Source: Paracoccaceae bacterium
Lineage (GTDB): Bacteria > Pseudomonadota > Alphaproteobacteria > Rhodobacterales > Rhodobacteraceae
NCBI GenBank assembly: GCA_030066175.1
Contig: JASJCC010000014.1
Span: forward strand, 1-33,814
Reading direction: 5' to 3'
DNA: 33,814 nt
The notes below the pieces were generated by a model. That model did no database searches, had not been told where the DNA came from, and saw only the letters and a list, made by a program, of their open reading frames with translations. Of this stretch, positions 4,860-17,453 are shown one piece after another (position 1 is the first letter of the stretch; the number at the start of each line of letters is the position of its first letter). The translations under genes were made by a program, and so were the position numbers.

Positions 4860-5633
4860 TCACGCAGCCCCTTTTCGGGTTGCGTTGGCGAGCGCAGCCC
4901 GCAAGGACGCAACCGCGGCTGCATTGTCCGGCCAGGGGGTGCCGTCGGGCGCGTAGATGTTGTTCTCAAACCCCACCCGTAGATCCCAGCCGAGATGTGC
5001 CGCGGCCAGCAAGCAGGCCTGCTCTGGCGGGCCGAAGGCACAGACCGTCATTTCCAGCTGTCCCGCTTGCGCCAAGGCCGCGTGTTGCGCCAACTCGGCG
5101 GGTTGACCCGCGCGCGGCGGGTCGCATTGGCCCAAAACGGCAATCGCGTCACGCATGTCGGCGGGCACAAGACCGGTGGCGTGCCAGTCCGCCAATTGCT
5201 GGTAACAGTCTGGACCATAAAGGATATGCTGGACCTCGGTGCCCGCCGCATGGGCCGCCGTATAGAGCCGGGCGGCGCGTGTTGCATCGCGGGCCATTTC
5301 GCGCACGGCCACGCTCGCGGCCCGGGGGTGCAGCGTCTCGATCAGGTGCAGCTGGTCCGCCACGTCGTAGCGGCCCGCGGCTTCGGTGGTGATCTGCACA
5401 CCCAAACCCGGCGCGGCCTCTGCAATCGCCTCCAGCGCTTCGCGGTAGAGGCCCACATCCAGAGAATGCGCCCCCTGCCCGTCCCGCACGTGCAGATGCA
5501 ACGCGTCCGCCCCGGCCTCTTTGCACGCCCGAGCGGTGGCCGCGATCTCGGCCACCGTCAGAGGCACCGCCGGATGGTCGCGCTTCTGCAACCGTGCACC
5601 ATTGGGGGCGACGGTGATCTTGGGCCCGGTCAT
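4860..5633 (-). CDS. BKACE family (DUF849) beta-keto acid cleavage enzyme, atypical subgroup
   Basis: The 257-residue protein belongs to the BKACE/DUF849 TIM-barrel family. Known members use zinc to split a beta-keto acid with acetyl-CoA, giving acetoacetate and a new CoA ester. The zinc pair His46 and His48 is present in LHLHVRD at the same numbers as in the characterised 3-keto-5-aminohexanoate cleavage enzyme Kce. The third ligand is Glu223 in RVGFENNIY. Two positions differ from Kce as I recall it: residue 14 is Arg (NGARL) rather than Glu, and the residue after the zinc Glu is Asn rather than Asp. The protein is also shorter than most BKACEs (about 270-310). The start overlaps the end of the FAD/GcvT gene by four bases, with GAGGA just upstream. 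Confidence 0.88.
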   Translation of the reverse strand: MTGPKITVAPNGARLQKRDHPAVPLTVAEIAATARACKEAGADALHLHVRDGQGAHSLDVGLYREALEAIAEAAPGLGVQITTEAAGRYDVADQLHLIETLHPRAASVAVREMARDATRAARLYTAAHAAGTEVQHILYGPDCYQQLADWHATGLVPADMRDAIAVLGQCDPPRAGQPAELAQHAALAQAGQLEMTVCAFGPPEQACLLAAAHLGWDLRVGFENNIYAPDGTPWPDNAAAVASLRAALANATRKGAA

Positions 5634-8014
5634 ACGCGCATCCTCGCGCCTTCTGGGTCAAACGCCGGCGCCAGTTGCATCCGGCCCGGCACCCGTTTGC
5701 CGGCGATGTCGAGCTCGACAGGCGCGCCGTCCATAGCGGCCTCCACATGCGCCAACACAATCGGCGCGCCGATGCGGTAGCCATAGGCTGCCGAGGTTGT
5801 CTGCCCGATGATCTTCCCGTCGCGATAAACCGGCTCATGCCCCAAGGGCACGGCGTCGTCCTGCTCCAGCACAATCGTCACGAGGCTGCGCGCCACGTCC
5901 GACGCAGCCACCACCTCCGCCCCGATGAACCCGCCGGCCTTCTTGCACATTTTGCTCATGCCCAAAGCATGCGGACCCAAATCGCCGTCGATCTCGTGCC
6001 CCATGGCGGCAAAGCCCTTTTCGATCCGCATCGAGGTCTGCGCATAAAGCCCGGCCGGCACCGCCCCGGCACCCGTCAAGGCGGCGTAGATCGCGGTGGC
6101 GTTTTCGGCTTTGCAGGTGATCTCCCACCCCGCCTCGCCGACATAGGACATCCGCACCGCGCGCACGTGTTTGCCGGCGATGTGCGCCGGGCCAACCTGG
6201 AAATAGCCCAGATCGTTGAGCTTTGGTGCGCCGGTCTCGGCCACGATCCGTGCCGCCTCGGGGCCCATCAGGGCCAGCACGGCATAGTCCTCGGTGCTGT
6301 CGGCCAAAGCAACGTCAAAGCCTTCGGCATGCCGCTGCAGCCAAGCCAGATCGCGTTTGATCGCGTTTGTGCCGGTGAAGAGGCGGTAGTGATCCGCGGC
6401 AATCCGATGGGCGGTCAGGTCACTTTCATAGGTGCCGCGGTCGTTCAGGATGCCGGTATAGATCGCCGTGCCCGCGGGCCGGTCCATGTTGCGCATGCAG
6501 ATCCGTTGCAGGAAGGCGCAGGCATCCGGGCCCGTCACCTCGATCTTGCCAAAGGGGGAGGCATCGAAGATCGCAGCGTGCTCATGTGCCGCCATCACCT
6601 CAGCCCGGACGTTTTCGAACCAGTCGGGCCGGTCAAAGCGCAGCTGGGGCTCGGCCGTTTTGCCGAAGAAAAGCGGCCGTTCCCAGCCATAGACCTGCCC
6701 CATATGCGCCCCCGCGGCGCGGTACTCCGCATCCAACGGCAGGCGTCGCAGGTCGCGGGCCGTCTGAAGCTGACGACCGGGATAGGCAATCTCGTAATGC
6801 GTGCCGAGGATTTCCGGCGCGCGGGCCATCAGGTGCTCGACCGAGTTGAAGACCGGCGCAAAGCGCTTGGCATCGGCCTCGGACAGATCATAGGCGGTGT
6901 GGCCGTGCACGATGTTATGGGCGAGGTTCATCCCCGCCCCGCCACCCGAGGCCATCCCGACCGAATTCATCCCACAGCCCAGGAACAGCCCGCGCGTTTC
7001 CGCCGTTTCCCCCAGCATGAACATGCCGTCGGGGGTGAAGCTTTCAGGCCCGTTGAGCAGCATCTTGACCTCGGCGGTTTCCAGCGCCGGCAGGCGATGC
7101 AGCGCGTTGAGCATCATCGGCTCAAAATGATCCCAGTCTTCGGGCAGCAGGCCAAACTCGAAATTCTCGTCCAGAACTCCGGGCGCAATCGGTTTACCCA
7201 TCGGCTCGAAACACCCGACCAGCAACCCGCCGCTGTCGTCGCGAATATAGAGGTGGTTGTCGTGGTCGCTGAGCGTCGGCATGTTACCAGTGATGCCGTC
7301 GATGGGTTTGGTGAGCAGGAAGAAATGCTCACAGGCCAGCGCGGGTACCTCCGCCCCCGCCATGGCGCCGATTTCGCGTGACCAGAGCCCTGCGCAGAGC
7401 GCCACGGCATCACACATCACGGTGCCTTGGGTCGTCTCCACCCCGCTGATACGGCCGTTTTCGGTCAGGATGCCGGTCACGCCGGTGTCCTCAAAGATCC
7501 GCGCGCCCAAGCCCTTGGCCGATTTCACCAAGGCCGCGCAGACATCCGAGGGTGACACGCGCCCGTCCTCGGGTGACCAGACGGCGCCCAACACGTCCTC
7601 GGCGTTCATCAGCGGCCAACGCTCCTGCGCCTCACCGGCGCTGATCCACTGCGCGTCGATGCCATAACCATGCGCCAGCGCCTCTTGTCGCCGCACATGG
7701 GTAGCGCGGTCGGGCGTGGTGGCGATGGACAGCGAGCCCTTCTGGATCCAGCCCACCGATTGCCCGGTCTCGCGTTCCAACTGGGCATAAAGATCGACAG
7801 AATACTGGATCATGCGCGTCAGGTTGCGCGAATGCCGCAGCGCCCGGACCTGTGCCGCGGAATGCCAGGTGGTGCCCGAGGTCAGCTTATTGCGCTCCAG
7901 CAGGATCGCGTCTGTCACGCCCATCTTGGCGAGGTGATAAAGCGTTGAGCAGCCCATGATGCCGCCGCCGATCACGACAACCGAGGCATGGGGGGGAAGG
8001 TGGGAATCAGGCAT
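5630..8014 (-). CDS. FAD-dependent oxidoreductase/GcvT fusion (dimethylglycine/sarcosine dehydrogenase-like)
   Basis: This is a 794-residue fusion typical of dimethylglycine dehydrogenase-like enzymes, which oxidatively remove an N-methyl group and pass the one-carbon unit to tetrahydrofolate. The DAO-type FAD domain is at about 10-370, starting with the dinucleotide motif VVIGGGIMGCS. SGTTWHSA contains His51, at the position where related enzymes attach FAD covalently. A short linking domain (about 375-430) precedes the aminomethyltransferase (GCV_T) domain at 435-690 and its C-terminal barrel at 700-790. The gene opens the leftward operon and has AAGGA seven bases before its ATG. It diverges from the RpiR gene across a region with two palindromes. 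The true methylamine substrate is unknown; dimethylglycine, sarcosine or a beta-amino acid analogue are all possible. Confidence 0.92.
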   Translation of the reverse strand: MPDSHLPPHASVVVIGGGIMGCSTLYHLAKMGVTDAILLERNKLTSGTTWHSAAQVRALRHSRNLTRMIQYSVDLYAQLERETGQSVGWIQKGSLSIATTPDRATHVRRQEALAHGYGIDAQWISAGEAQERWPLMNAEDVLGAVWSPEDGRVSPSDVCAALVKSAKGLGARIFEDTGVTGILTENGRISGVETTQGTVMCDAVALCAGLWSREIGAMAGAEVPALACEHFFLLTKPIDGITGNMPTLSDHDNHLYIRDDSGGLLVGCFEPMGKPIAPGVLDENFEFGLLPEDWDHFEPMMLNALHRLPALETAEVKMLLNGPESFTPDGMFMLGETAETRGLFLGCGMNSVGMASGGGAGMNLAHNIVHGHTAYDLSEADAKRFAPVFNSVEHLMARAPEILGTHYEIAYPGRQLQTARDLRRLPLDAEYRAAGAHMGQVYGWERPLFFGKTAEPQLRFDRPDWFENVRAEVMAAHEHAAIFDASPFGKIEVTGPDACAFLQRICMRNMDRPAGTAIYTGILNDRGTYESDLTAHRIAADHYRLFTGTNAIKRDLAWLQRHAEGFDVALADSTEDYAVLALMGPEAARIVAETGAPKLNDLGYFQVGPAHIAGKHVRAVRMSYVGEAGWEITCKAENATAIYAALTGAGAVPAGLYAQTSMRIEKGFAAMGHEIDGDLGPHALGMSKMCKKAGGFIGAEVVAASDVARSLVTIVLEQDDAVPLGHEPVYRDGKIIGQTTSAAYGYRIGAPIVLAHVEAAMDGAPVELDIAGKRVPGRMQLAPAFDPEGARMRV

Positions 8015-8114: not shown

Positions 8115-8987
8115 GTGACAGACAGCGCCAGCATTCAGGATCGCATCAACCGGTCCTATTCCGGTCTCAGCGACAAGTTGCAGGTTGCGGCGCAGTACGT
8201 CGCCGACAATCCTGTGGACGTCGCCACCCGGTCGCTGCGCGCCGTGGCGACCACCAGCGGCGTGTCGCCCGCCACGTTTTCCCGCCTCGCCAGAGCCCTG
8301 GGCTATGCCGACTATGAGGCGATGCGCGAAGATGGGCGCCTGGCCGTCGAGCGGCAGATGTCGCCCTTTTCCGAGCGCGCCTCGGCCCTGCGCAGCAAGG
8401 CCAGCGGCCAAGCCGGCCGCGCGATCTTGCAGCATCAAGCGGCGGCTTGCGTCGCCAATATCGAGGCTTTGGAACAGACGATCGATCCACAAAGGCTCGA
8501 GGCGGCGGTGGCGGCGCTGCATGCGGCGCGTCAGGTGCTGTTGGTAGGATCAAAGGGATCTGCAGGGCTGATCGACTACCTTGGCTATATGGGCCACTGG
8601 TTCAAAACCAACTGGCGCATTGCGGGCCGCAACGGCACCGAGCTGTCTGCCACCCTGTCGCGCCTTGGCCCGGGCGACGTGGTGCTGGCCCTGGCCAAAC
8701 AACCCTATGCCCACCGCACCGTAGCAGCCCTGCAAGCTGCGCAGGCAGCGGGCGCCGAAACCATCGCGATCACCGACAGCCGGACCTCTCCGGCATTGCA
8801 ATTTGCCGAACATGCTTTCATCGTCTCCACCGAGAGCCCGCAGTTCTTTTCGTCTTACGCGGCGACACTGGTTCTGATGGAGACGATGATCAGCATGCTG
8901 CTGGCCCGCGCCGGACCCGATGCCGAAGACATGATCCGCGCGGCCGAGCTTCAGATCGACCGTCTGGGGGAAAACTGGACGGCGTAA
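8115..8987 (+). CDS. RpiR/MurR family transcriptional regulator (HTH plus SIS domains)
   Basis: This 290-residue regulator has an N-terminal RpiR-type helix-turn-helix domain (about 10-65) including TTSGVSPATFSRLARALGY. A SIS sugar-isomerase-like sensor domain follows at about 125-262, beginning QVLLVGSKGSAG and containing AIAITDS-like features. I chose the GTG at 8115 because GAGGGGGG lies just before it and the protein then has the usual family length. The in-frame ATG at 8040 would place the operator palindromes inside the gene and add residues with no family match. SIS domains usually bind phosphosugars, but RpiR members next to amine catabolism genes are also common. It diverges from the FAD/GcvT operon and reads toward the TAXI-TRAP transporter 41 bp downstream. 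It probably controls both arms. Confidence 0.9.
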   Translation: MTDSASIQDRINRSYSGLSDKLQVAAQYVADNPVDVATRSLRAVATTSGVSPATFSRLARALGYADYEAMREDGRLAVERQMSPFSERASALRSKASGQAGRAILQHQAAACVANIEALEQTIDPQRLEAAVAALHAARQVLLVGSKGSAGLIDYLGYMGHWFKTNWRIAGRNGTELSATLSRLGPGDVVLALAKQPYAHRTVAALQAAQAAGAETIAITDSRTSPALQFAEHAFIVSTESPQFFSSYAATLVLMETMISMLLARAGPDAEDMIRAAELQIDRLGENWTA

Positions 8988-9028
8988 ACAACCAAAAGAC
9001 TTGCAACATCCAAAAGGGAGAAAACACA

Positions 9029-9997
9029 ATGTTTGCAAAGCACTTCATGAAAGGCGCCGCCGTTGCCGCGGTGCTGGGCATGGCCGGGGCGGCCAGCGCG
9101 CAGCAGACCTTTATCACCATCGGCACCGGCGGTGTGACCGGCGTCTACTACCCGACCGGCGGCGCCATCTGCCGTCTGGTGAACAAAGGCCGCAAGGAAC
9201 ACGGCATCCGCTGCTCGGTCGAATCCACCGGCGGATCGGTCTACAACACCCGCACCATCCGCGAGGGGGAGCTGGACTTTGGCGTTGTGCAGTCCGACGT
9301 GCAATCGGCCGCAATGGAAGGCGTGCGCGCCTTTGACGGCGATGAGCCCTACGCCGATCTGCGCGCGGTCTTCTCCGTGCACCCCGAACCGATGCACGTC
9401 ATGGTGCGCGGCGATTCCGGCATTGAGTCCGTGATGGACATGAAGGGCAAGCGGGTGAATATCGGCAACCCCGGCTCGGGCACCCGTGTTCTGGCTGGCG
9501 TTCTGATGGATGCCGCCGGCGTGACGCCTGATGACTTTGCGCTTGCCGCCGAGCTGAAATCCTCCGAACAGGCCGCCGCGCTTTGCGATGGCAAGATCGA
9601 CGCCGCGATCTGGGCTGCCGGTCTGCCCAACGGTTCGACCATGGAGGCAACCTCGACCTGCGATATCAAGGTCCTCGATCTGACCTCGTCGGGCATGGAC
9701 AAGGTGCTGGCGGAAAACGCGGCTTATGCGGCGGCGGGCATCCCCGGCGGTCTTTACCCGGGCAACGATGGCGACATCGCCTCTTGGGGCCCCAAGGCGA
9801 CCTTTGTTACCGATGCCAGCACCCCGGATGAGGTGGTTTACACGCTGGTGAAGTCGATCTTTGAAAACTTCGACGACTTCAAGAAACTGCACCCGGCCTT
9901 CAACGCTCTGACCGAAGAGCAGATGATCAAGGACGGTCTCAGCGCGCCGCTGCACCCCGGTGCCGCACAATACTATGGCGAGCGCGGCTGGATGTGA
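9029..9997 (+). CDS. TAXI-type TRAP transporter substrate-binding protein
   Basis: This is a periplasmic solute-binding protein of the TAXI family, 322 residues. A signal peptide is clear (positively charged start, hydrophobic core, cleavage after ASA near residue 24). The mature protein begins QQTFITIGTGGVTGVYYPTGGAI, containing the family's TGGxTGxYYP signature, followed by VESTGGSVYNTR and GVVQSDVQ. TAXI proteins deliver small organic acids or amino acids to a fused permease, driven by an ion gradient. AGGGAG lies 10 bases before the ATG. The gene sits between the RpiR regulator and the permease and is followed by a strong hairpin. Its ligand is unknown and is presumably the substrate of the divergent catabolic operon. 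Confidence 0.94.
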   Translation: MFAKHFMKGAAVAAVLGMAGAASAQQTFITIGTGGVTGVYYPTGGAICRLVNKGRKEHGIRCSVESTGGSVYNTRTIREGELDFGVVQSDVQSAAMEGVRAFDGDEPYADLRAVFSVHPEPMHVMVRGDSGIESVMDMKGKRVNIGNPGSGTRVLAGVLMDAAGVTPDDFALAAELKSSEQAAALCDGKIDAAIWAAGLPNGSTMEATSTCDIKVLDLTSSGMDKVLAENAAYAAAGIPGGLYPGNDGDIASWGPKATFVTDASTPDEVVYTLVKSIFENFDDFKKLHPAFNALTEEQMIKDGLSAPLHPGAAQYYGERGWM

Positions 9998-10093: not shown

Positions 10094-12694
10094 ATGTCGG
10101 ACGCACAGACCAAGGGGCCCGAGCCCGCGCTCGAGGATATCGTCGCCGACGCCGATACCGGCGGGCGCAACCCGCATGACGCGTTTGGCCGCGCGGCCCT
10201 CTGGTATATCCCGCTGGTCTGGTCGATCTACCAGCTCTGGATCGCCTCCCCCCTGCCCTTCATGCTGGGCATCGGCGTGATGAACGACACCCAGACGCGC
10301 GCAATCCACCTTGGGTTTGCGGTGCTCTTGGCCTTCATCGCCTTCCCGGGCCTGAAAAACAGCCCGCGTCACCACATCCCGGCCCTCACCTGGGTCATCG
10401 CCATCGCCGCCGCCGTTACCGCGTCTTATCTCTGGTGGGACTACCGCGGTGTGGCGCAACGCACCGGTGCCCCGAACACCACCGACCTGATCATGGCGGG
10501 TATCGGTATCGTGCTGCTTTTGGAGGCCGCGCGCCGGTCGCTCGGCTTCCCGCTGATGGGTGTGGCGCTCTTCTTCCTGTCTTATGTCTTTTTCGGCTCC
10601 TGGTCCGGCCTGCCGGAGGTGGTGCAGTGGAAAGGGGCGTCCTTCGAGAAAGCCATGAGCCATATGTGGCTGACCACCGAGGGCGTTTTTGGCGTGGCGT
10701 TGGGTGTGTCTTCGGGCTTTGTCTTTCTCTTCGTGCTCTTCGGCGCTTTGTTGAACCAAGCAGGCGCGGGCAACTACTTCCTGAAACTCGCCTTCGCCGC
10801 ATTGGGCCACCTGCGCGGTGGCCCGGCCAAAGCGGCCGTCATCGCCTCAGCCGCCACCGGCCTGATCTCGGGGTCCTCGATCGCCAACGTGGTCACCACC
10901 GGCACCTTCACCATCCCCTTGATGAAAAAGGTGGGCTTCCCGGCCACCAAGGCCGGCGCGGTTGAGGTCTCATCCTCGATCAACGGCGTTCTGACGCCGC
11001 CGGTGATGGGCGCCGTGGCCTTCCTGATGACCGAATATGTCGGCATTTCCTATGTCGAGGTGGTGAAAACCGCGATTGTTCCGGCGGCGATTTCCTATGT
11101 CGCGCTGGTCTATATCGTGCATCTCGAAGCGCTCAAGATGGGCATGACCGGCACCAGCCGCATGAACCCGATCAAGTTCATCCTCGGCGCGATCTTCATC
11201 ATCGCCATCTCGATCGTCATCGCGGGCGGCACGCTGTTCCTGACCGGTGTCATCGTCGACACCCTCGGCAGCGTCTTTGGTGGCGCGTCGCTCTATGTCA
11301 TCCTCGCCATCATGCTGGCCGCGTATATCGCCGCCGTGCGCTACGCCGCGCAGGCGCCCGATCTGGATATGAGCCTCGAGTCGATGCAGCACCTGCCGCC
11401 GACGCGCGATATCTTCAAGACCGGCATCCACTACCTGATGCCGATCCTCTTGCTGATGTATCTCTTGATGATCGAACGCAAATCTCCAGGCCTTTCAGCC
11501 TTTTGGTCGACGATTTTCATGTTGTTCATCCTGCTCACCCAGAACCCGTTAAAGGCCTTCTTCCGCGGCGAAGGTGAAACCGTCCGCCACATCCAAGAGG
11601 GCCTATCGGACATTGCCGAGGGCATGATCGCCGGCGCCCGCAACATGATCGGCCTCGCCGCCGCCATGGGCGTTGCGGGCATCATCGTCGGCGCCGTGAC
11701 GCTCACCGGGATTGGCCAGGTGATGGCGGAGTTTGTCGAGTTCCTGTCGGGCGGCAACCTCTTGGCGATGCTGTTCTTCGTCGCCGTCATCTCGATCATC
11801 CTCGGGATGGGCCTGCCGACGACCGCCAACTACATCGTCGTCAGCTCGCTGATGGCCGGGGTGGTCGTCGAGCTGGGCGCGCAAGCCGGGCTGATCGTGC
11901 CGCTGGTCGCGGTGCACATGTTCGTCTTCTATTTCGGGATCATGGCCGATGTGACACCCCCGGTGGGGCTCGCAAGCTTCGCCGCCGCCGCGATCTCCAA
12001 AGGGGATCCATTGCGCACCGGGTTCCAGGCCTTCTTCTACTCGATCCGCACCGCCCTTCTGCCATTCCTCTTCATCTTCAACACCGATCTTCTGTTGATC
12101 GATGTCGGACCCGTGCAAGCGGTCTTTGTCTTTATCATCGCGCTTATCGCCATGCTGCTCTTTGCCGCCGGGACGATGAATTACTTCATGGTCAAGTCGC
12201 GATTGTGGGAAAGCGCGGTGCTGCTCTTCTCGGCCTTCGTGCTTTTCCAGCCCGGCTTCTTTCTGAACCAGATGGCGCCCGAGTTTGAATCCCGCCCCGG
12301 CAGCGCGTTGTTTGAAATGGCCGAAGCGGCCGCGGATGGCGCCTCGCTCCGGGTGCGGCTGGTGGGTGAGAACCTCAACGGCGATCTGGTCGATGCGCGC
12401 TACCTTTTGCCGGTGGGCGATTCCGGGGCCGACGGCGAAACCCGGCTGATGGATGGCGCCGGGATCGAGTTCCGCGATGAAGGCGGCAGTATCTTTGTCG
12501 ATAATCTGAGCTTTGGCGGACCAGCCGAGCAGTTGGGGATCGATTTCGACTGGGAAGTGGTCGAGCTTGAGGTCGCTGCCGACCGACTGCCGAAAGAGAT
12601 CTTCTACATCCCGGCCCTACTGCTCGTCGCCATGGTGTTCGGCCTACAGATGGGCCGCAAACGGAAAGAAGAAAGCCAGGAGGCCCCAGCATGA
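10094..12694 (+). CDS. TRAP transporter fused permease (4TM-12TM) with extra C-terminal domain
   Basis: This is an 866-residue inner-membrane permease in which the small DctQ-like and large DctM-like TRAP subunits are fused, as is usual with TAXI binding proteins. The DctQ-like helices occupy about residues 30-170. The DctM part (about 190-700) shows TGLISGSSIANVVTTGTFTIP, GVLTPPVMGAVAF, ILGMGLPTTANYIVVSSL and a late DVTPPVGLASFAAAAIS motif. After the last core helices comes a soluble segment at about 735-833 with GGPAEQLGIDFDW, resembling a PDZ-type loop (a DUF3394-like tail), then a final helix (838-855) and a basic end. GGGGGA precedes the ATG. Its stop overlaps the UspA start by four bases. 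Confidence 0.94.
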   Translation: MSDAQTKGPEPALEDIVADADTGGRNPHDAFGRAALWYIPLVWSIYQLWIASPLPFMLGIGVMNDTQTRAIHLGFAVLLAFIAFPGLKNSPRHHIPALTWVIAIAAAVTASYLWWDYRGVAQRTGAPNTTDLIMAGIGIVLLLEAARRSLGFPLMGVALFFLSYVFFGSWSGLPEVVQWKGASFEKAMSHMWLTTEGVFGVALGVSSGFVFLFVLFGALLNQAGAGNYFLKLAFAALGHLRGGPAKAAVIASAATGLISGSSIANVVTTGTFTIPLMKKVGFPATKAGAVEVSSSINGVLTPPVMGAVAFLMTEYVGISYVEVVKTAIVPAAISYVALVYIVHLEALKMGMTGTSRMNPIKFILGAIFIIAISIVIAGGTLFLTGVIVDTLGSVFGGASLYVILAIMLAAYIAAVRYAAQAPDLDMSLESMQHLPPTRDIFKTGIHYLMPILLLMYLLMIERKSPGLSAFWSTIFMLFILLTQNPLKAFFRGEGETVRHIQEGLSDIAEGMIAGARNMIGLAAAMGVAGIIVGAVTLTGIGQVMAEFVEFLSGGNLLAMLFFVAVISIILGMGLPTTANYIVVSSLMAGVVVELGAQAGLIVPLVAVHMFVFYFGIMADVTPPVGLASFAAAAISKGDPLRTGFQAFFYSIRTALLPFLFIFNTDLLLIDVGPVQAVFVFIIALIAMLLFAAGTMNYFMVKSRLWESAVLLFSAFVLFQPGFFLNQMAPEFESRPGSALFEMAEAAADGASLRVRLVGENLNGDLVDARYLLPVGDSGADGETRLMDGAGIEFRDEGGSIFVDNLSFGGPAEQLGIDFDWEVVELEVAADRLPKEIFYIPALLLVAMVFGLQMGRKRKEESQEAPA

Positions 12695-13119
12695 CGGAAC
12701 ATGTCCTTTGCGCCATCGACCTGACCCACGAAGACGACGCCAAGGCGCTGTTGCGCGAGGCCGACAAGTTGGCCGGGTTCTACGGCGCCACGCTGAGCGT
12801 GGTGACCGTGCTGCCGGATTTCGGATCCTCCTGGGTCGGCACGTTTTTCAAGCCGGGCACGATGCATGACGCCGCGGAGGCTGCCAACGACGCCCTGCAC
12901 GACCTGGTGCGACAGACCCTGCCCGACCGCGAAGGGGTGCAGCACATCGTCGAGATCGGCGTGGTCTACGAAGAGGTCCTTCGGGCTATTTCCCAAGCAC
13001 AAGCCGACCTCGTCATCGTCGGCGCGCACAAACCCGACATCGCCGACCGGCTCCTCGGCCCCAACTCCGCCCGGATCGCCCGCTTGTCGCCAGTCTCGAC
13101 GCTCGTGGTGCGGGTCTAG
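12691..13119 (+). CDS. UspA-family universal stress protein linked to the TRAP transporter
   Basis: This is a 142-residue single-domain UspA protein. The N-terminus VLCAIDLTHEDDAKALL and the C-terminal ATP-loop region VIVGAHKPDIADRLLGPNSARI followed by LSPVSTLVVRV fit the family. The ATP-loop region resembles that of TeaD, the UspA protein that modulates the ectoine TRAP transporter TeaABC of Halomonas. The gene overlaps the permease stop by four bases (ATGA). A role in tuning transport in response to ATP is therefore likely, though inferred from TeaD. It is the last gene of the rightward operon. Confidence 0.92.
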   Translation: MTEHVLCAIDLTHEDDAKALLREADKLAGFYGATLSVVTVLPDFGSSWVGTFFKPGTMHDAAEAANDALHDLVRQTLPDREGVQHIVEIGVVYEEVLRAISQAQADLVIVGAHKPDIADRLLGPNSARIARLSPVSTLVVRV

Positions 13120-13192
13120 CAAGGATCCGCTTCTGCGCGACCGGTAATCTTGCGACTCACCCGAAGCACACTTTTAACGACCCAGACCCAAG

Positions 13193-13222
13193 AACGGCGC
13201 CACAGGGAACTGCGGCGCCGTT
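13193..13222. terminator. Shared hairpin between convergent uspA and chemoreceptor genes
   Basis: AACGGCGCC and GGCGCCGTT form a perfect 9-bp stem with a 12-base loop. It lies 73 bases after the UspA stop and 36 bases beyond the end of the leftward chemoreceptor gene. Both exits carry short T-containing runs but no strong U-tract. It is placed to stop transcription from both sides. Confidence 0.6.
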
Positions 13223-13258
13223 CACTTGATTTGCTCGATTGGTCTTGTTTCCGCTGAA

Positions 13259-15007
13259 TTAGGTACCGGTTTTCAGTGCGCGCATCTCTGCCATCGGTGT
13301 CGCCACCACTGCGGACGCATGACCCGAGATGGAAAAGCGCGACATCTGCTGGGTCAGGTCGTTGACGCTTTGGGTCAGCATATGTGCGGCGGCAGTGGAT
13401 TGTTCGACCATGGCAGCGTTTTGCTGGGTCACGCGGTCGAGGTTGGTCACCCCAACGTTGATTTCCTTCAGGCCCTCGGCCTGTTCCGAAGCGCCATTGG
13501 CAATGCCGCTCATTAGTTCGGAGATGTGATCGACCTCGCGCACCACTTCGTTCAGCGCTTGCCCGGCTCGTTCGACCAGCCCCACACCATCTTTGACCTG
13601 GTTGGTCGAATTGCCGACAAGCTGCTTGATCTGCTGCGCTGCGTCCGAGCTGCGTTGCGCCAGCGCGCGCACTTCCGAGGCGACCACCGCAAAGCCTTTG
13701 CCTGAGGCGCCCGCACGGGCGGCTTCGACACCGGCATTCAGCGCCAAGAGGTTGGTCTGGAAAGCGATGTCGTCGATCACGGTGATAATCTCGCCGATCT
13801 GGCCCGAGGATTTTTCAATCTCGGACATGGCATCGACCGCCGATTGCATCACCGCGCCATTCTGTGCCGCCATGGTCGAAGCGCTTTGTACCGAGGTTTC
13901 GACCTCACGGGCCGAGGTTGCGGCTTTGCTGACGATGCTGAGCAATTGATCCAATGCGGCAGCGGTTTGCTCCAGCGTCGCCGCCTGGTTTTCCGTGCGG
14001 CGCGACAGATCGTCGGAAGCGCTGGAAATCTCGGTGGCGCCGTGGCCAATGGATTCGGCTGTGCCCTGCACCGATCCCAAGGCGTCGCGCAAGGCTTCGA
14101 CGGCGGTGTTGTAGTCGCTCCGCAGGGCCAGATACTGATCCGGGAAATCGGCCGTGATGGTTTCGGTCAGAACCCCTTCGGAGAGCGTCCGCAACCCGCG
14201 GCTGAGATGCGCCACAACGTCGGCTTGCGCGCGGTGTTCTTCCTGTCGCGCAGCCTCAAGCTCACTGCTTTCCCGCAGTTTTTCGGCCAGGAGATCGAGG
14301 TCACGCGCGATATCGCCCAGTTCATCGCCGCGCGTGCGCATTTGCACGTCCTGATCGTAATCTCCGCCGGCAATCGCGGTCATGGTCATGCCAAGATCGC
14401 GCAGCGGCTTGCCGATCATCCGTCGCAGCGCCAGCAGGGTCAGCACGGACATGCCCAGCATCACCGCAAAGCCCACAAGCAGGATGGTGATCTTCTTGCC
14501 GGATACGGCGCGCAAGGCGTTGGCATCGGTAAAGGCCATCGCGATGGCCCCGGTCGCCGTGCCGTCTGGCAGCAAAACCGGCGCGGCCAGATGCAATCCA
14601 TCCGGGCTGGCAGCAGACTCGCCCGTTTCGATAGCGCGCGCGGCCAGCGCGCTCAGTGTTGTACTCAAGGATGGGGCGACGGCGCGTTCTGCAAGGACCG
14701 CACCGTCGCCACCGAATATCATCACCCCTTCGCCATCTTCGCCGGCGACCCGCACCGCTTCGTCGGCGGTTTCTTCGATCTTGGGCTGCGCCTTGAACCG
14801 GATCGGCTGTACCAGCGCGTCCGACTGGAACGAGACCGTCGCGGTCGCCCGGTCGGCCACCGCCTCGCGGACGAGGCTGTCGACCACCCGGGTCGACCCG
14901 GTGACCAGCACACCCGCCACGATCAAGGTCGTAACCGTCATGATGGCGGCGCACTTTACAAAAACCGACCGCAGGGCCGAGGTTCGGACAAGATCGAGAG
15001 CGGGCAT
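13259..15007 (-). CDS. Methyl-accepting chemotaxis protein
   Basis: This is an inner-membrane chemoreceptor of 582 residues. Helix 1 spans about 18-37, a small periplasmic domain covers 40-170, helix 2 covers 173-193 and a HAMP domain covers 195-250. A second HAMP-like segment lies around 270-310, followed by the long signalling coiled coil. The conserved hairpin tip at about 404-450 includes AFQTNLLALNAGVEAARAG and GKGFAVVASEVRALAQRS. These contact CheA and CheW. The ligand domain contains a short Cache/PAS-like stretch (FGGDGAVLAERAV and LLPDGTATGAIAMAF). No CheR-binding pentapeptide ends the protein. The gene lies 46 bp downstream of a secreted Cache-like protein on the same strand, suggesting that the two sense together. 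Confidence 0.95.
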   Translation of the reverse strand: MPALDLVRTSALRSVFVKCAAIMTVTTLIVAGVLVTGSTRVVDSLVREAVADRATATVSFQSDALVQPIRFKAQPKIEETADEAVRVAGEDGEGVMIFGGDGAVLAERAVAPSLSTTLSALAARAIETGESAASPDGLHLAAPVLLPDGTATGAIAMAFTDANALRAVSGKKITILLVGFAVMLGMSVLTLLALRRMIGKPLRDLGMTMTAIAGGDYDQDVQMRTRGDELGDIARDLDLLAEKLRESSELEAARQEEHRAQADVVAHLSRGLRTLSEGVLTETITADFPDQYLALRSDYNTAVEALRDALGSVQGTAESIGHGATEISSASDDLSRRTENQAATLEQTAAALDQLLSIVSKAATSAREVETSVQSASTMAAQNGAVMQSAVDAMSEIEKSSGQIGEIITVIDDIAFQTNLLALNAGVEAARAGASGKGFAVVASEVRALAQRSSDAAQQIKQLVGNSTNQVKDGVGLVERAGQALNEVVREVDHISELMSGIANGASEQAEGLKEINVGVTNLDRVTQQNAAMVEQSTAAAHMLTQSVNDLTQQMSRFSISGHASAVVATPMAEMRALKTGT

Positions 15008-15053
15008 CGCGTGTCTCCGGTTGCAGAAGAGGTCAGGAAGGGGCGGCAGGCGC

Positions 15054-15623
15054 TTACATAAAGGCGTCGGCGATCACCCCGACCGTCATCGCACCGACAA
15101 CTTCGCCGGTGGCCGGATCGGTCAGCGCCATCGAGATCTGCACCTGGTAGGACTGGCTCGATTCGTCGAATTCGATCTCACCGAAATGCACGGCGCCGGC
15201 ACCGACGCCAAAGGTTTCGGAGAACTTCGCCTCATCACCCTGCCAGTAATCCGAGGTCACGGCAGAGGCCGCCACGTTCAGGCCCACGGCGTCCATGACA
15301 AACACCTCGGTGATCATGCCACCCGAGGCTTCGGTCTGCGCGCGCAGGAAATCCGCGGCCGCGTTGCCGAGCACCGGATCGATCGTCGGCGTGCTGGCAG
15401 CGCCCACTTCGGCGCGCCAGGTCTGATCCAGGTCGTTGATCGTTGCGGCATCGTAACCGGCGGTCATGGCGTTTTGTGCGGCAATGGCGTCCATCAGGAC
15501 GGCGTCATGCGCCCAAGGCATGATCTGGTCCTGCAGGAAGGCGTTCATTGCCGGGGTCGGTTCGGCGGCAAAGGCGGGGGCTGCGGCGGCAAGGGTGGCA
15601 GCAACGAGGGCGGTACGGATCAT
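15054..15623 (-). CDS. Secreted single-domain Cache-like protein next to a chemoreceptor
   Basis: This 189-residue protein has a signal peptide with cleavage expected after AFA at about residue 19, and no membrane anchor, so it should be free in the periplasm. The C-terminal half reads like the core of a Cache/PDC sensor domain. FVMDAVGLNVAAS (108-120), TSDYWQGDEAKF (123-134) and a closing strand with ALTDPATGEVVGAMTVGV (166-183) match the pattern seen in extracellular domains of chemoreceptors and kinases. The N-terminal half would be the long helix of such a domain. It probably forms an operon with the downstream chemoreceptor gene. The function is not established. I infer a ligand-binding partner of the receptor. 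Confidence 0.72.
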   Translation of the reverse strand: MIRTALVAATLAAAAPAFAAEPTPAMNAFLQDQIMPWAHDAVLMDAIAAQNAMTAGYDAATINDLDQTWRAEVGAASTPTIDPVLGNAAADFLRAQTEASGGMITEVFVMDAVGLNVAASAVTSDYWQGDEAKFSETFGVGAGAVHFGEIEFDESSQSYQVQISMALTDPATGEVVGAMTVGVIADAFM

Positions 15624-15914
15624 CAGAATCTCCTGTTGGTGGGTGTCATGCGCGGCACCCTAGGAACGATGACCTTATGTTCCGTTAATGACGTCCCGCG
15701 CATTTCGCGACAGGTTTAAAGGTCGAAAAACGACAGATCGTCGCATTCGGTACAGACAGGCGCGGGCGCAGGGACTGAACTGCGCGTTATGGACCAAGAA
15801 CGTTCCAGCATCGCGGTGATCCAGCGCAAGATCGGGGCGCGGCGTGGACGGGCGGCGCGCGGGCGGCCTTAACCGGCCTCTGCCACCCGTTTCTTTCACC
15901 GCCAGGATACCAAG
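15624..15914. other. Divergent intergenic region before the Cache-like and mttB-like genes
   Basis: This 291-bp region has no convincing gene and must hold the promoters of both divergent units. Visible structure is limited to short repeats: GTCG-AAAAA-CGAC at 15722-15734, which can also pair onward with GTCG at 15740-15743, and CGCG-CATTT-CGCG near 15698. A 27-codon frame (15789-15872) ends before the mttB-like start and has no supporting ribosome site. I see no recognisable riboswitch. Confidence 0.5.
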
Positions 15915-17453
15915 ATGAACGCTCCTTCCCCTCGCCGCAGCGGTGGCCGCAAGGCCCGCGTTGCGGCCCGCGCCGCCGCCCCCGACGCAGATGCCCGCCC
16001 GGTTCAGCCGGGCATGTCCGGCGGGCTTTATTCGCCGCTGAGCGATGCCGAAACCCAGCGCATTCACCGCGCGGCCTTGCTGGCATTGGAAGAGATCGGT
16101 CTGGCTGATGCGCCGCCCTCGGGCGTTGAAATCATGACAAAAGCCGGCGCCATCCAAGGCGCGGATGGCCGGCTGCGCTTTCCCCCGGCGCTGGTCGAGG
16201 ACATGCTGGCCATCGCGGCACGTGACATCACACTGCACGGGCGTGACCCGGCGCATGATCTGGACCTTTCCGGGACGCAGGTGCATTTCGGCACCGCCGG
16301 AGCCGCCGTGCATATGGTCGATCTGGCAAGCGACAGCTATCGCGACAGCACCTTGCAGGATCTGCACGACGCCGCGCGGATCGCCGATCAGCTCAACAAC
16401 ATCCATTTTGTGCAGCGGCCCATGGTGGCGCGGGATGTGACGGACAATCGGCTGCTTGATCTCAACACGATCTACGCCTGCTGTGCAGGCACCACGAAAC
16501 ATATCGGTACATCTTTTGTCGAACCGGCCTTTGTACCGGAGGCTTTGACGCTTTTGCACATGATTGCCGGCGGTGAAGACGCCTGGCGCGCGCGGCCATT
16601 TGTGTCAAATTCGAACTGTTTTGTTGTGCCGCCGATGAAATTCGCCACCGAAAGCTGCGAGGTGATGGAGGCCTGCATTCGCGGCGGCATGCCGGTGCTG
16701 CTGCTGAGCGCCGGTCAGGCGGGGGCGACCGCGCCGGTGACGATCGCCGGGGCGATTGTGCAGGCGGTGGCGGAATGCCTGGCTGGGCTGGTCTATGTCA
16801 ACGCGATGGCGCCGGGGCATCCGGCGGTGTTTGGCACCTGGCCCTTTGTGTCCGACCTGCGCACCGGGGCGATGTCGGGTGGGTCGGGGGAGCAGGCGCT
16901 GCTGACCGCCGGCTGCGCGCAGATGCACCGGTTTTATGGCCTTCCAGGTGGGGCTGCGGCCGGGATCGCAGACTCCAAACGCCCCGACATGCAGGCCGGG
17001 TGGGAGCAGATGTGTTCCAACGTCATGGCCGGGCTTTCGGGGCTCAACATGGTTTATGAGGCGGCGGGCATGCATGCCTCGCTGCTGGGGTTCTGCCATG
17101 AAAGCCTGATCCTCGGCGACGATCTTCTGGGCCAGGCGCTGCGCTGCGTGCGCGGGATCGAGGTCAGCGAAGACGCGCTGAGCCTCGAGGCGATGCGCGC
17201 CACCTGCATCGGCGGCCCGGGGCATTACCTGGGCTCGGACCAGACGCTGGCGCGGATGCAGACGGATTACGTCTATCCGGCTTTGGGCGACAGGACCTCC
17301 CCCAAGGAATGGGAAGAGCTGGGCAAACCCGACCTTCTGGCCAAGGCGACCGCGCGCAAGGAGGAGATCTTGTCACAGCGTGCCGCGGCGCGGTTTGATC
17401 CCGCGACCGACCAGGCCATCCGCGACGCGTTCGAGATCCTCTTGCCGGCCTAG
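15915..17453 (+). CDS. Trimethylamine methyltransferase family (MttB-like), non-pyrrolysine
   Basis: This is a cytoplasmic TIM-barrel protein of 512 residues in the MttB superfamily (COG5598). Members transfer a methyl group from a methylamine or betaine to a corrinoid protein. The whole frame reads without an internal amber codon, so it lacks pyrrolysine and falls with the non-Pyl group that includes the glycine betaine methyltransferase MtgB. Family stretches such as HIGTSFVEP, PFVSNSNCFVVPPMKF and CIGGPGHYLG are visible. The first 35 residues are rich in Arg, Gly and Ala and look disordered. The start has only a weak AGGA 12 bases upstream. No corrinoid protein or activating gene lies nearby. 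Glycine betaine, another quaternary amine or a different substrate are all possible. Confidence 0.9.
   Translation: MNAPSPRRSGGRKARVAARAAAPDADARPVQPGMSGGLYSPLSDAETQRIHRAALLALEEIGLADAPPSGVEIMTKAGAIQGADGRLRFPPALVEDMLAIAARDITLHGRDPAHDLDLSGTQVHFGTAGAAVHMVDLASDSYRDSTLQDLHDAARIADQLNNIHFVQRPMVARDVTDNRLLDLNTIYACCAGTTKHIGTSFVEPAFVPEALTLLHMIAGGEDAWRARPFVSNSNCFVVPPMKFATESCEVMEACIRGGMPVLLLSAGQAGATAPVTIAGAIVQAVAECLAGLVYVNAMAPGHPAVFGTWPFVSDLRTGAMSGGSGEQALLTAGCAQMHRFYGLPGGAAAGIADSKRPDMQAGWEQMCSNVMAGLSGLNMVYEAAGMHASLLGFCHESLILGDDLLGQALRCVRGIEVSEDALSLEAMRATCIGGPGHYLGSDQTLARMQTDYVYPALGDRTSPKEWEELGKPDLLAKATARKEEILSQRAAARFDPATDQAIRDAFEILLPA

Follow-up and report, generated by a model that had tools for sequence, protein, structure and literature searches.

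A secreted free-standing Cache protein paired with a chemoreceptor in Rhodobacteraceae: a probable detached sensory subunit

A secreted protein with the predicted fold of a single Cache (PDC) domain, P0001, is encoded directly before a methyl-accepting chemotaxis protein (MCP), P0002, in a Paracoccaceae bacterium of the order Rhodobacterales. P0001 is probably a detached periplasmic sensory subunit of this chemoreceptor, predicted to bind a ligand and to dock on the receptor. Computational analysis of a 33,814-nucleotide stretch of contig JASJCC010000014.1 (hereafter, the window) and of related genomes yielded an export signal, a Cache fold, an operon-like pairing of the two genes, conservation of this pairing across families and across receptor types, co-occurrence of the two partners when their genes are unlinked, and a conserved motif.

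The gene pair and its products

Both genes are located on the minus strand of the window. The gene of P0001 (15054..15623; 189 aa, ATG start) is separated from that of P0002 (13259..15007; 582 aa, ATG start) by an intergenic gap of 46 bp (15008..15053), which contains a GGAG ribosome-binding-site-like sequence before the ATG of P0002. This is the arrangement given in the preliminary description, a secreted protein encoded 46 bp before a chemoreceptor. In a pattern scan of positions 12900-16000, no promoter-like site was found, and the terminator-like matches were weak (4 found vs. 2.5 expected in shuffles).

The N-terminus of P0001, MIRTALVAATLAAAAPAFA-AEP, was judged by eye to be a signal peptide (residues 1–19, 15567..15623, minus strand) with an AFA-AE cleavage site. 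The 189-residue protein has no second membrane segment and no output domain, in line with its earlier designation as secreted; it contains 0 Cys residues and therefore is not a lipoprotein. One copy was found in the genome (3.74 Mb, 253 contigs, 84% complete).

The sequence of P0001 alone is insufficient to establish its Cache identity. The Pfam scan returned 0 families at E<=1, the NCBIfam scan only a sub-threshold match to FlgB, and the PDB sequence search with P0001 alone 0 matches. The A1 profile compared with the PDB retrieved lysozyme and one capsid-fusion match only (E 0.39 or worse), and we dismissed both as chance. The assignment draws on an AlphaFold2 model and on weak Pfam matches of relatives. 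The model, built from alignment A2 with 78 relatives, is confident (mean pLDDT 93.3, pTM 0.85) and has a Cache/PAS-like fold with a long N-terminal helix. Foldseek matched it to 62 PDB chains at E<=1e-3, headed by DctB (4e-7), and nearly all of the ranked rows shown are Cache/PDC sensor domains; comparison with DctB (3by9_A) gave Z 12.6, rmsd 3.5, and 141 aligned residues. The Cache-like core that the preliminary description had read from the letters is thus borne out by structure prediction of the protein alone. When the 82 relatives of P0001 were scanned singly, MCP-like_PDC_1 was matched in 7/82 (best 1e-7) and dCache_1 in 10/82 (best 1.4e-4), these being E-values as given, with the curated Pfam cut-offs of the two families not shown. 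As far as the model goes, P0001 is predicted to belong to the Cache (PDC) superfamily as a fold, not as a Pfam sequence family.

P0002 is an MCP chemoreceptor with all the expected parts, namely a periplasmic ligand domain (residues 42–168, 14504..14884), a HAMP domain (residues 194–246, 14270..14428; Pfam, 3.1e-11), and a signalling domain (MCPsignal, 13427..13891; Pfam, 2.5e-47), all on the minus strand. The N-terminus of the receptor, modelled with AlphaFold2 from alignment A3 (56 rows; pLDDT 93.3), contains a single CitA/WalK-like Cache domain, also captured by our profile A4, which would serve as the docking site. Its closeness to CitA (1p0z; Z 13.0, rmsd 3.0, 117 aligned) and WalK (4ywz_B; Z 12.2, rmsd 2.7, 123 aligned) gives a fold to the small ligand domain with which the receptor had earlier been credited. 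Hence, both partners have Cache folds in their models. When the profiles of the cache family and of the receptor ligand domain were compared with each other, the probability was 16 and E 0.0016, and common descent of the two partners is therefore not claimed.

The genome contains seven MCPsignal matches and two CheW-domain matches, one of the latter in a 693-aa frame, and thus a chemotaxis system is present. The last residues of P0002 are KTGT, whereas many of the longer (~850-aa) receptors of the same type end in WE[ED]F; P0002 may rely on other receptors for adaptation.

Several neighbours of the pair were noted in the window. A fused TRAP permease with a DUF3394 tail (TRAP_fused) is encoded at 10094-12694 (+), and a universal stress protein gene (12691-13119, +) overlaps the permease gene by 4 bp. 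Upstream of the permease, the frame 8447-9997 includes an NMT1_3 (TAXI-type) binding protein. An MttB-family methyltransferase gene (15915-17453, +) is situated divergently beside the pair, and a DAO/GCV_T dimethylglycine-dehydrogenase-like protein is encoded at 5630-8014 (-). Among the best 80 of at least 570 relatives, the former arrangement recurs in 8/80 and a dimethylglycine-dehydrogenase-like gene is found at <=5 kb from the pair in 7/80. The loci with an MttB neighbour seem to represent a single lineage, and MttB genes are present in most genomes of the family (58/61, often several). N-methylated ligands, at which these neighbours may hint, are therefore no more than a weak lead.

Conservation and co-occurrence of the pair

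A scan of GTDB genome contigs gave at least 570 relatives of P0001, of which the best 80 were kept; an MCP-like ORF directly follows the cache gene on the same strand in 62/80 of these. Against the bias of nearest relatives, we used an evenly drawn sample of the family, in which 80/295 genomes had a match (87 rows but 86 genes, a broken gene in G245 accounting for two rows), and read all loci with their flanks. An MCP is encoded downstream on the same strand of 63/86 cache genes. The gaps of 61/63 pairs lie between -26 and 207 bp with a median of 37, the remaining two involving an overlong ORF start, and 60/63 paired receptors match the single-Cache ligand-domain profile (the exceptions are L118, L121, and L125). 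Seven of the 23 genes without a downstream MCP encode PilJ-Cache fusions, and one more, L123, is truncated and resembles what is left of a PilJ-Cache gene. With the seven fusions set aside, 16/79 genes, including L123, have no adjoining MCP.

The pairing extends beyond the family. In a sample of the phylum outside it, a match was found in 38/398 genomes; of the 36 places fetched, 23 hold free-standing genes, and 16/23 of these adjoin an MCP: 13 downstream, two upstream on the same strand (L162, L165), and one divergent (L166). No MCP was seen beside the other seven (L163, L174, L175, L176, L184, L186, L193). Ten of the outside-family receptors were typed with Pfam: five contain CHASE3 (L159, L167, L171, L172, L173), one contains dCache_1 (L177), and in four no known ligand domain was found at E<=0.01 (L158, L160, L164, L165). 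According to a quickly built tree of 122 cache domains, the state of having another type of MCP as the partner must have changed at least three times along well-supported branches, and one branch (SH-aLRT 93, not starred) has all the PilJ fusions on the same side. Given these receptor-type switches and the varied gene order, the partnership with MCPs outlives changes of both.

The adjacency of cache genes and MCP genes is far beyond chance, and the conservation of the pair that had been proposed as a check was found within the family as well as outside it. Annotated examples are available at NCBI: in Ruegeria sp. TM1040, the homologue TM1040_RS01395 is named "PDC sensor domain-containing protein" and its neighbour TM1040_RS01400 is a methyl-accepting chemotaxis protein, and Rhizobium sp. 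TCK has the same annotated pair. Clustering of neighbours relied on a crude choice of ORFs and under-counted MCPs (45/81 vs. 62/80). A cluster of 32 loci produced by it was discarded as antisense ORFs, situated on the opposite strand and mostly over the receptor.

Co-occurrence was assessed in the family sample, where 157/295 genomes contain MCPsignal. It is present in 77/80 genomes with a cache gene vs. 80/215 genomes without one (Fisher 1.3e-22, a p-value that ignores the relatedness of genomes); the three cache genomes lacking it are G022 and G183, both of the PilJ type, and G282. The ligand domain of the pair-type receptor (profile A4) was found in 84/295 genomes, including four weak matches in genomes without an MCP. 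Among the 157 MCP genomes, 67 contain both the cache gene and the pair-type receptor, 10 the cache gene only, 13 the receptor only, and 67 neither (p 4e-20, relatedness ignored). The test least explained by adjacency is confined to MCP genomes without a linked pair, in which the receptor type is present in 7/12 cache genomes vs. 13/83 others (p 0.0027, relatedness ignored).

The association is incomplete on both sides. Six of the 13 unlinked cache genomes lack a pair-type receptor, and one of the six, G282, lacks any MCP. Conversely, 13 MCP genomes have the pair-type receptor and no cache gene (L249-L261), and hence this receptor can work without the cache protein. Reading of 20 loci with unlinked receptors or receptors only revealed no ORF matching the cache model and no common alternative secreted partner. 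Distances between cache proteins of 55 pairs correlate with those between receptor ligand domains (r 0.39) and equally with those between signalling domains (0.41), and therefore are not indicative of specific coevolution; the partial correlation of cache and ligand domain given the signalling domain is 0.28 (p 0.0005). These distance correlations lend weak support to a partnership between the cache protein and the receptor.

Conserved motif and related architectures

Both peptides quoted in the preliminary description are present in P0001. The strand DAVGLNVAAS occupies residues 111–120 (15264..15293, minus strand), D111 and G114 being invariant in 82 relatives, and TSDYWQGDEAKF, residues 123–134 (15222..15257, minus strand), forms a putative ligand pocket loop. 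They belong to a motif, GLNV..S..TSDYWQGDEAK, that is nearly invariant in the cache family; the invariant positions of the 82-row alignment are N51, W69, D111, G114, D125, Q128, G129, D130, and G177. All copies beside single-Cache receptors contain WQGDE (62/62) and all copies beside other MCPs contain QGDE (14/14), while in most built-in relatives WQGDEAK is replaced by other residues. Constancy of the motif despite the change of partner suggests either a single shared ligand or a shared structural requirement, and its acidic residues hint at a cation as the ligand.

Related domains occur in several other settings. PilJ domains normally belong to receptors. Secreted proteins L112 and L114 contain cache-like domains fused to PilJ, as recognized by Pfam, and the larger set L111-L117 comprises secreted PilJ-Cache proteins without an MCP neighbour. 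The secreted PilJ-Cache proteins are a second type of free-standing sensor protein. In L182 and L183, Peripla_BP_5 binding proteins are fused to a related Cache domain; a 663-aa frame follows L182, overlapping its end by a few bases, and its C-terminus reads by eye like a histidine kinase. The histidine kinases L188-L190 have the related domain built in as the opening part of their dCache_1 region, and the fused relative L182 matches positions 32-156 of the 240 positions of the dCache_1 profile. P0001 thus resembles the detached membrane-distal half of a double Cache domain.

Comparison with known systems sets the pair apart in different ways. The receptors stimulated by solute-binding proteins (MBP-Tar, LsrB-Tsr) share with it the proposed scheme, in which a separate periplasmic protein binds the ligand and docks on an MCP; however, the soluble part is here a predicted single Cache domain of ~170 residues, not a two-lobed binding protein, and its gene adjoins that of the receptor, not that of a transporter. 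The dCache_1 receptors of the PctA, Tlp3, and DctB type resemble the cache family in that the latter matches the first half of dCache_1, whereas P0001 has neither transmembrane segments nor an output domain. The single-Cache receptors CitA, DcuS, and WalK have the fold predicted for the ligand domain of P0002, which, in contrast to them, is kept together with a second, soluble Cache protein. YfiR-YfiN, NspS-MbaA, and LuxP-LuxQ are likewise systems in which a membrane receptor is under the control of a partner in the periplasm; these partners have other folds, and signalling proceeds through c-di-GMP or kinases, not through MCPs. Finally, residues 353-494 of an extracellular binding receptor from Desulfohalobium retbaense (5ere) match the P0001 model (Z 9.8, rmsd 4.5, 133 aligned). 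This protein combines a binding protein with a Cache domain, as do the fusions L182 and L183, but its Cache part is not free-standing.

The models of the 2016 Cache census were built from regions between two membrane helices, and according to that paper Cache domains had until then been recognized in proteins with output domains only (PMC4822843); free Cache subunits thus fell outside the scope of the census. P0001 neither lies between two transmembrane helices nor carries an output domain. What is already known is the NCBI protein name "PDC sensor domain-containing protein" and binding-protein-assisted chemoreception. Among the papers listed in literature searches for free-standing Cache proteins and related schemes, none deals with a free Cache protein that is partnered by an MCP, and the exact NCBI name occurs in none of the papers of the library searched.

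Proposed mechanism and alternatives

We propose that the pair probably works like a binding-protein-assisted chemoreceptor whose soluble part comes from outside the binding-protein families. P0001 would be exported to the periplasm and form a single Cache domain, a homologue of the membrane-distal first half of dCache_1 sensors. The conserved TSDYWQGDEAK loop would border its pocket for one small ligand, and the bound (or empty) protein would dock on the small periplasmic domain of P0002. Docking would shift the signalling state of the HAMP and MCP domains, and hence CheA. The ligand binding, the docking on the P0002 Cache domain, the direction of the signal, and the role in taxis are the steps that we infer.

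The foremost alternative is regulation of the kind exerted by YfiR, which acts on YfiN, a protein of the CHASE8 domain class, as a periplasmic clamp or inhibitor. P0001 would accordingly be a periplasmic regulator, clamping or inhibiting the receptor and itself subject to release or titration by a signal, and the ligand may bind the receptor directly. Such a regulator would have the same genetics as a sensory subunit; 3/56 pair-type receptors show weak similarity to CHASE8 (best 3.7e-4; none for P0002), and the 13 MCP genomes with the receptor only are in keeping with it. We nevertheless regard it as unlikely, because the sensor fold of P0001 with its nearly invariant polar loop, as well as the match of its relatives to the first half of dCache_1, points to ligand binding.

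It is more improbable still that P0001 acts alone or with another system, as a scavenger, a chaperone, or a partner of a c-di-GMP or histidine-kinase protein, the adjacency to MCPs being one inherited context among several. Copies that would fit this explanation do exist: 16/79 lack a neighbouring MCP when the PilJ fusions are set aside, the seven PilJ-Cache fusions are beside no MCP, and the 15 orphan cache loci of the family that we read share no obvious common partner. The Azospirillum and Pseudoalteromonas copies adjoin cytochrome c, EAL, or arginine genes, not MCPs. On a plasmid of Azospirillum brasilense (L246), the unpaired cache gene follows genes for a c-type cytochrome and coxB and lies beside that of an EAL protein. 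The explanation fits poorly with MCP adjacency in different gene orders and with different receptor types, with the near-complete co-occurrence with MCPs (77/80), and with the receptor type still being present in 7/13 unlinked genomes.

Receptors stimulated by binding proteins are, according to PMC9602780, a general and widespread phenomenon, and functionally the scheme is the same; yet that P0001 itself is an unusually small solute-binding protein docking on the MCP in this known way is very improbable, since its predicted fold is a single Cache domain and not two-lobed, P0001 has no such Pfam match, the sole one among the 25 Pfam families listed for its relatives is Phosphonate-bd (0.052, in 1/82 members), and the pair lacks a cognate transporter. 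Hence, as family membership this is disfavoured by the modelled fold, and it stands as an analogy.

A more specific form of the sensory-subunit reading, which we put forward tentatively and think somewhat doubtful as a whole, treats the pair as a split double-Cache receptor. P0001 would be the diffusible membrane-distal Cache, an exchangeable sensory cartridge, and P0002 would keep only the small membrane-proximal Cache for docking. As part of the same tentative claim, the WQGDE loop would tune the free module to one conserved, perhaps cationic, ligand, and the module would have come to serve receptors whose ligand domains are unrelated, besides being fused to binding proteins and to PilJ domains.

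The pair is carried by the culturable Ruegeria sp. TM1040, and the scheme is thus directly testable. Should the scheme prove right, the true sensor would escape ligand screens carried out on the own domains of such receptors. It would also mean that a very common sensory fold can act in diffusible form, as solute-binding proteins do.
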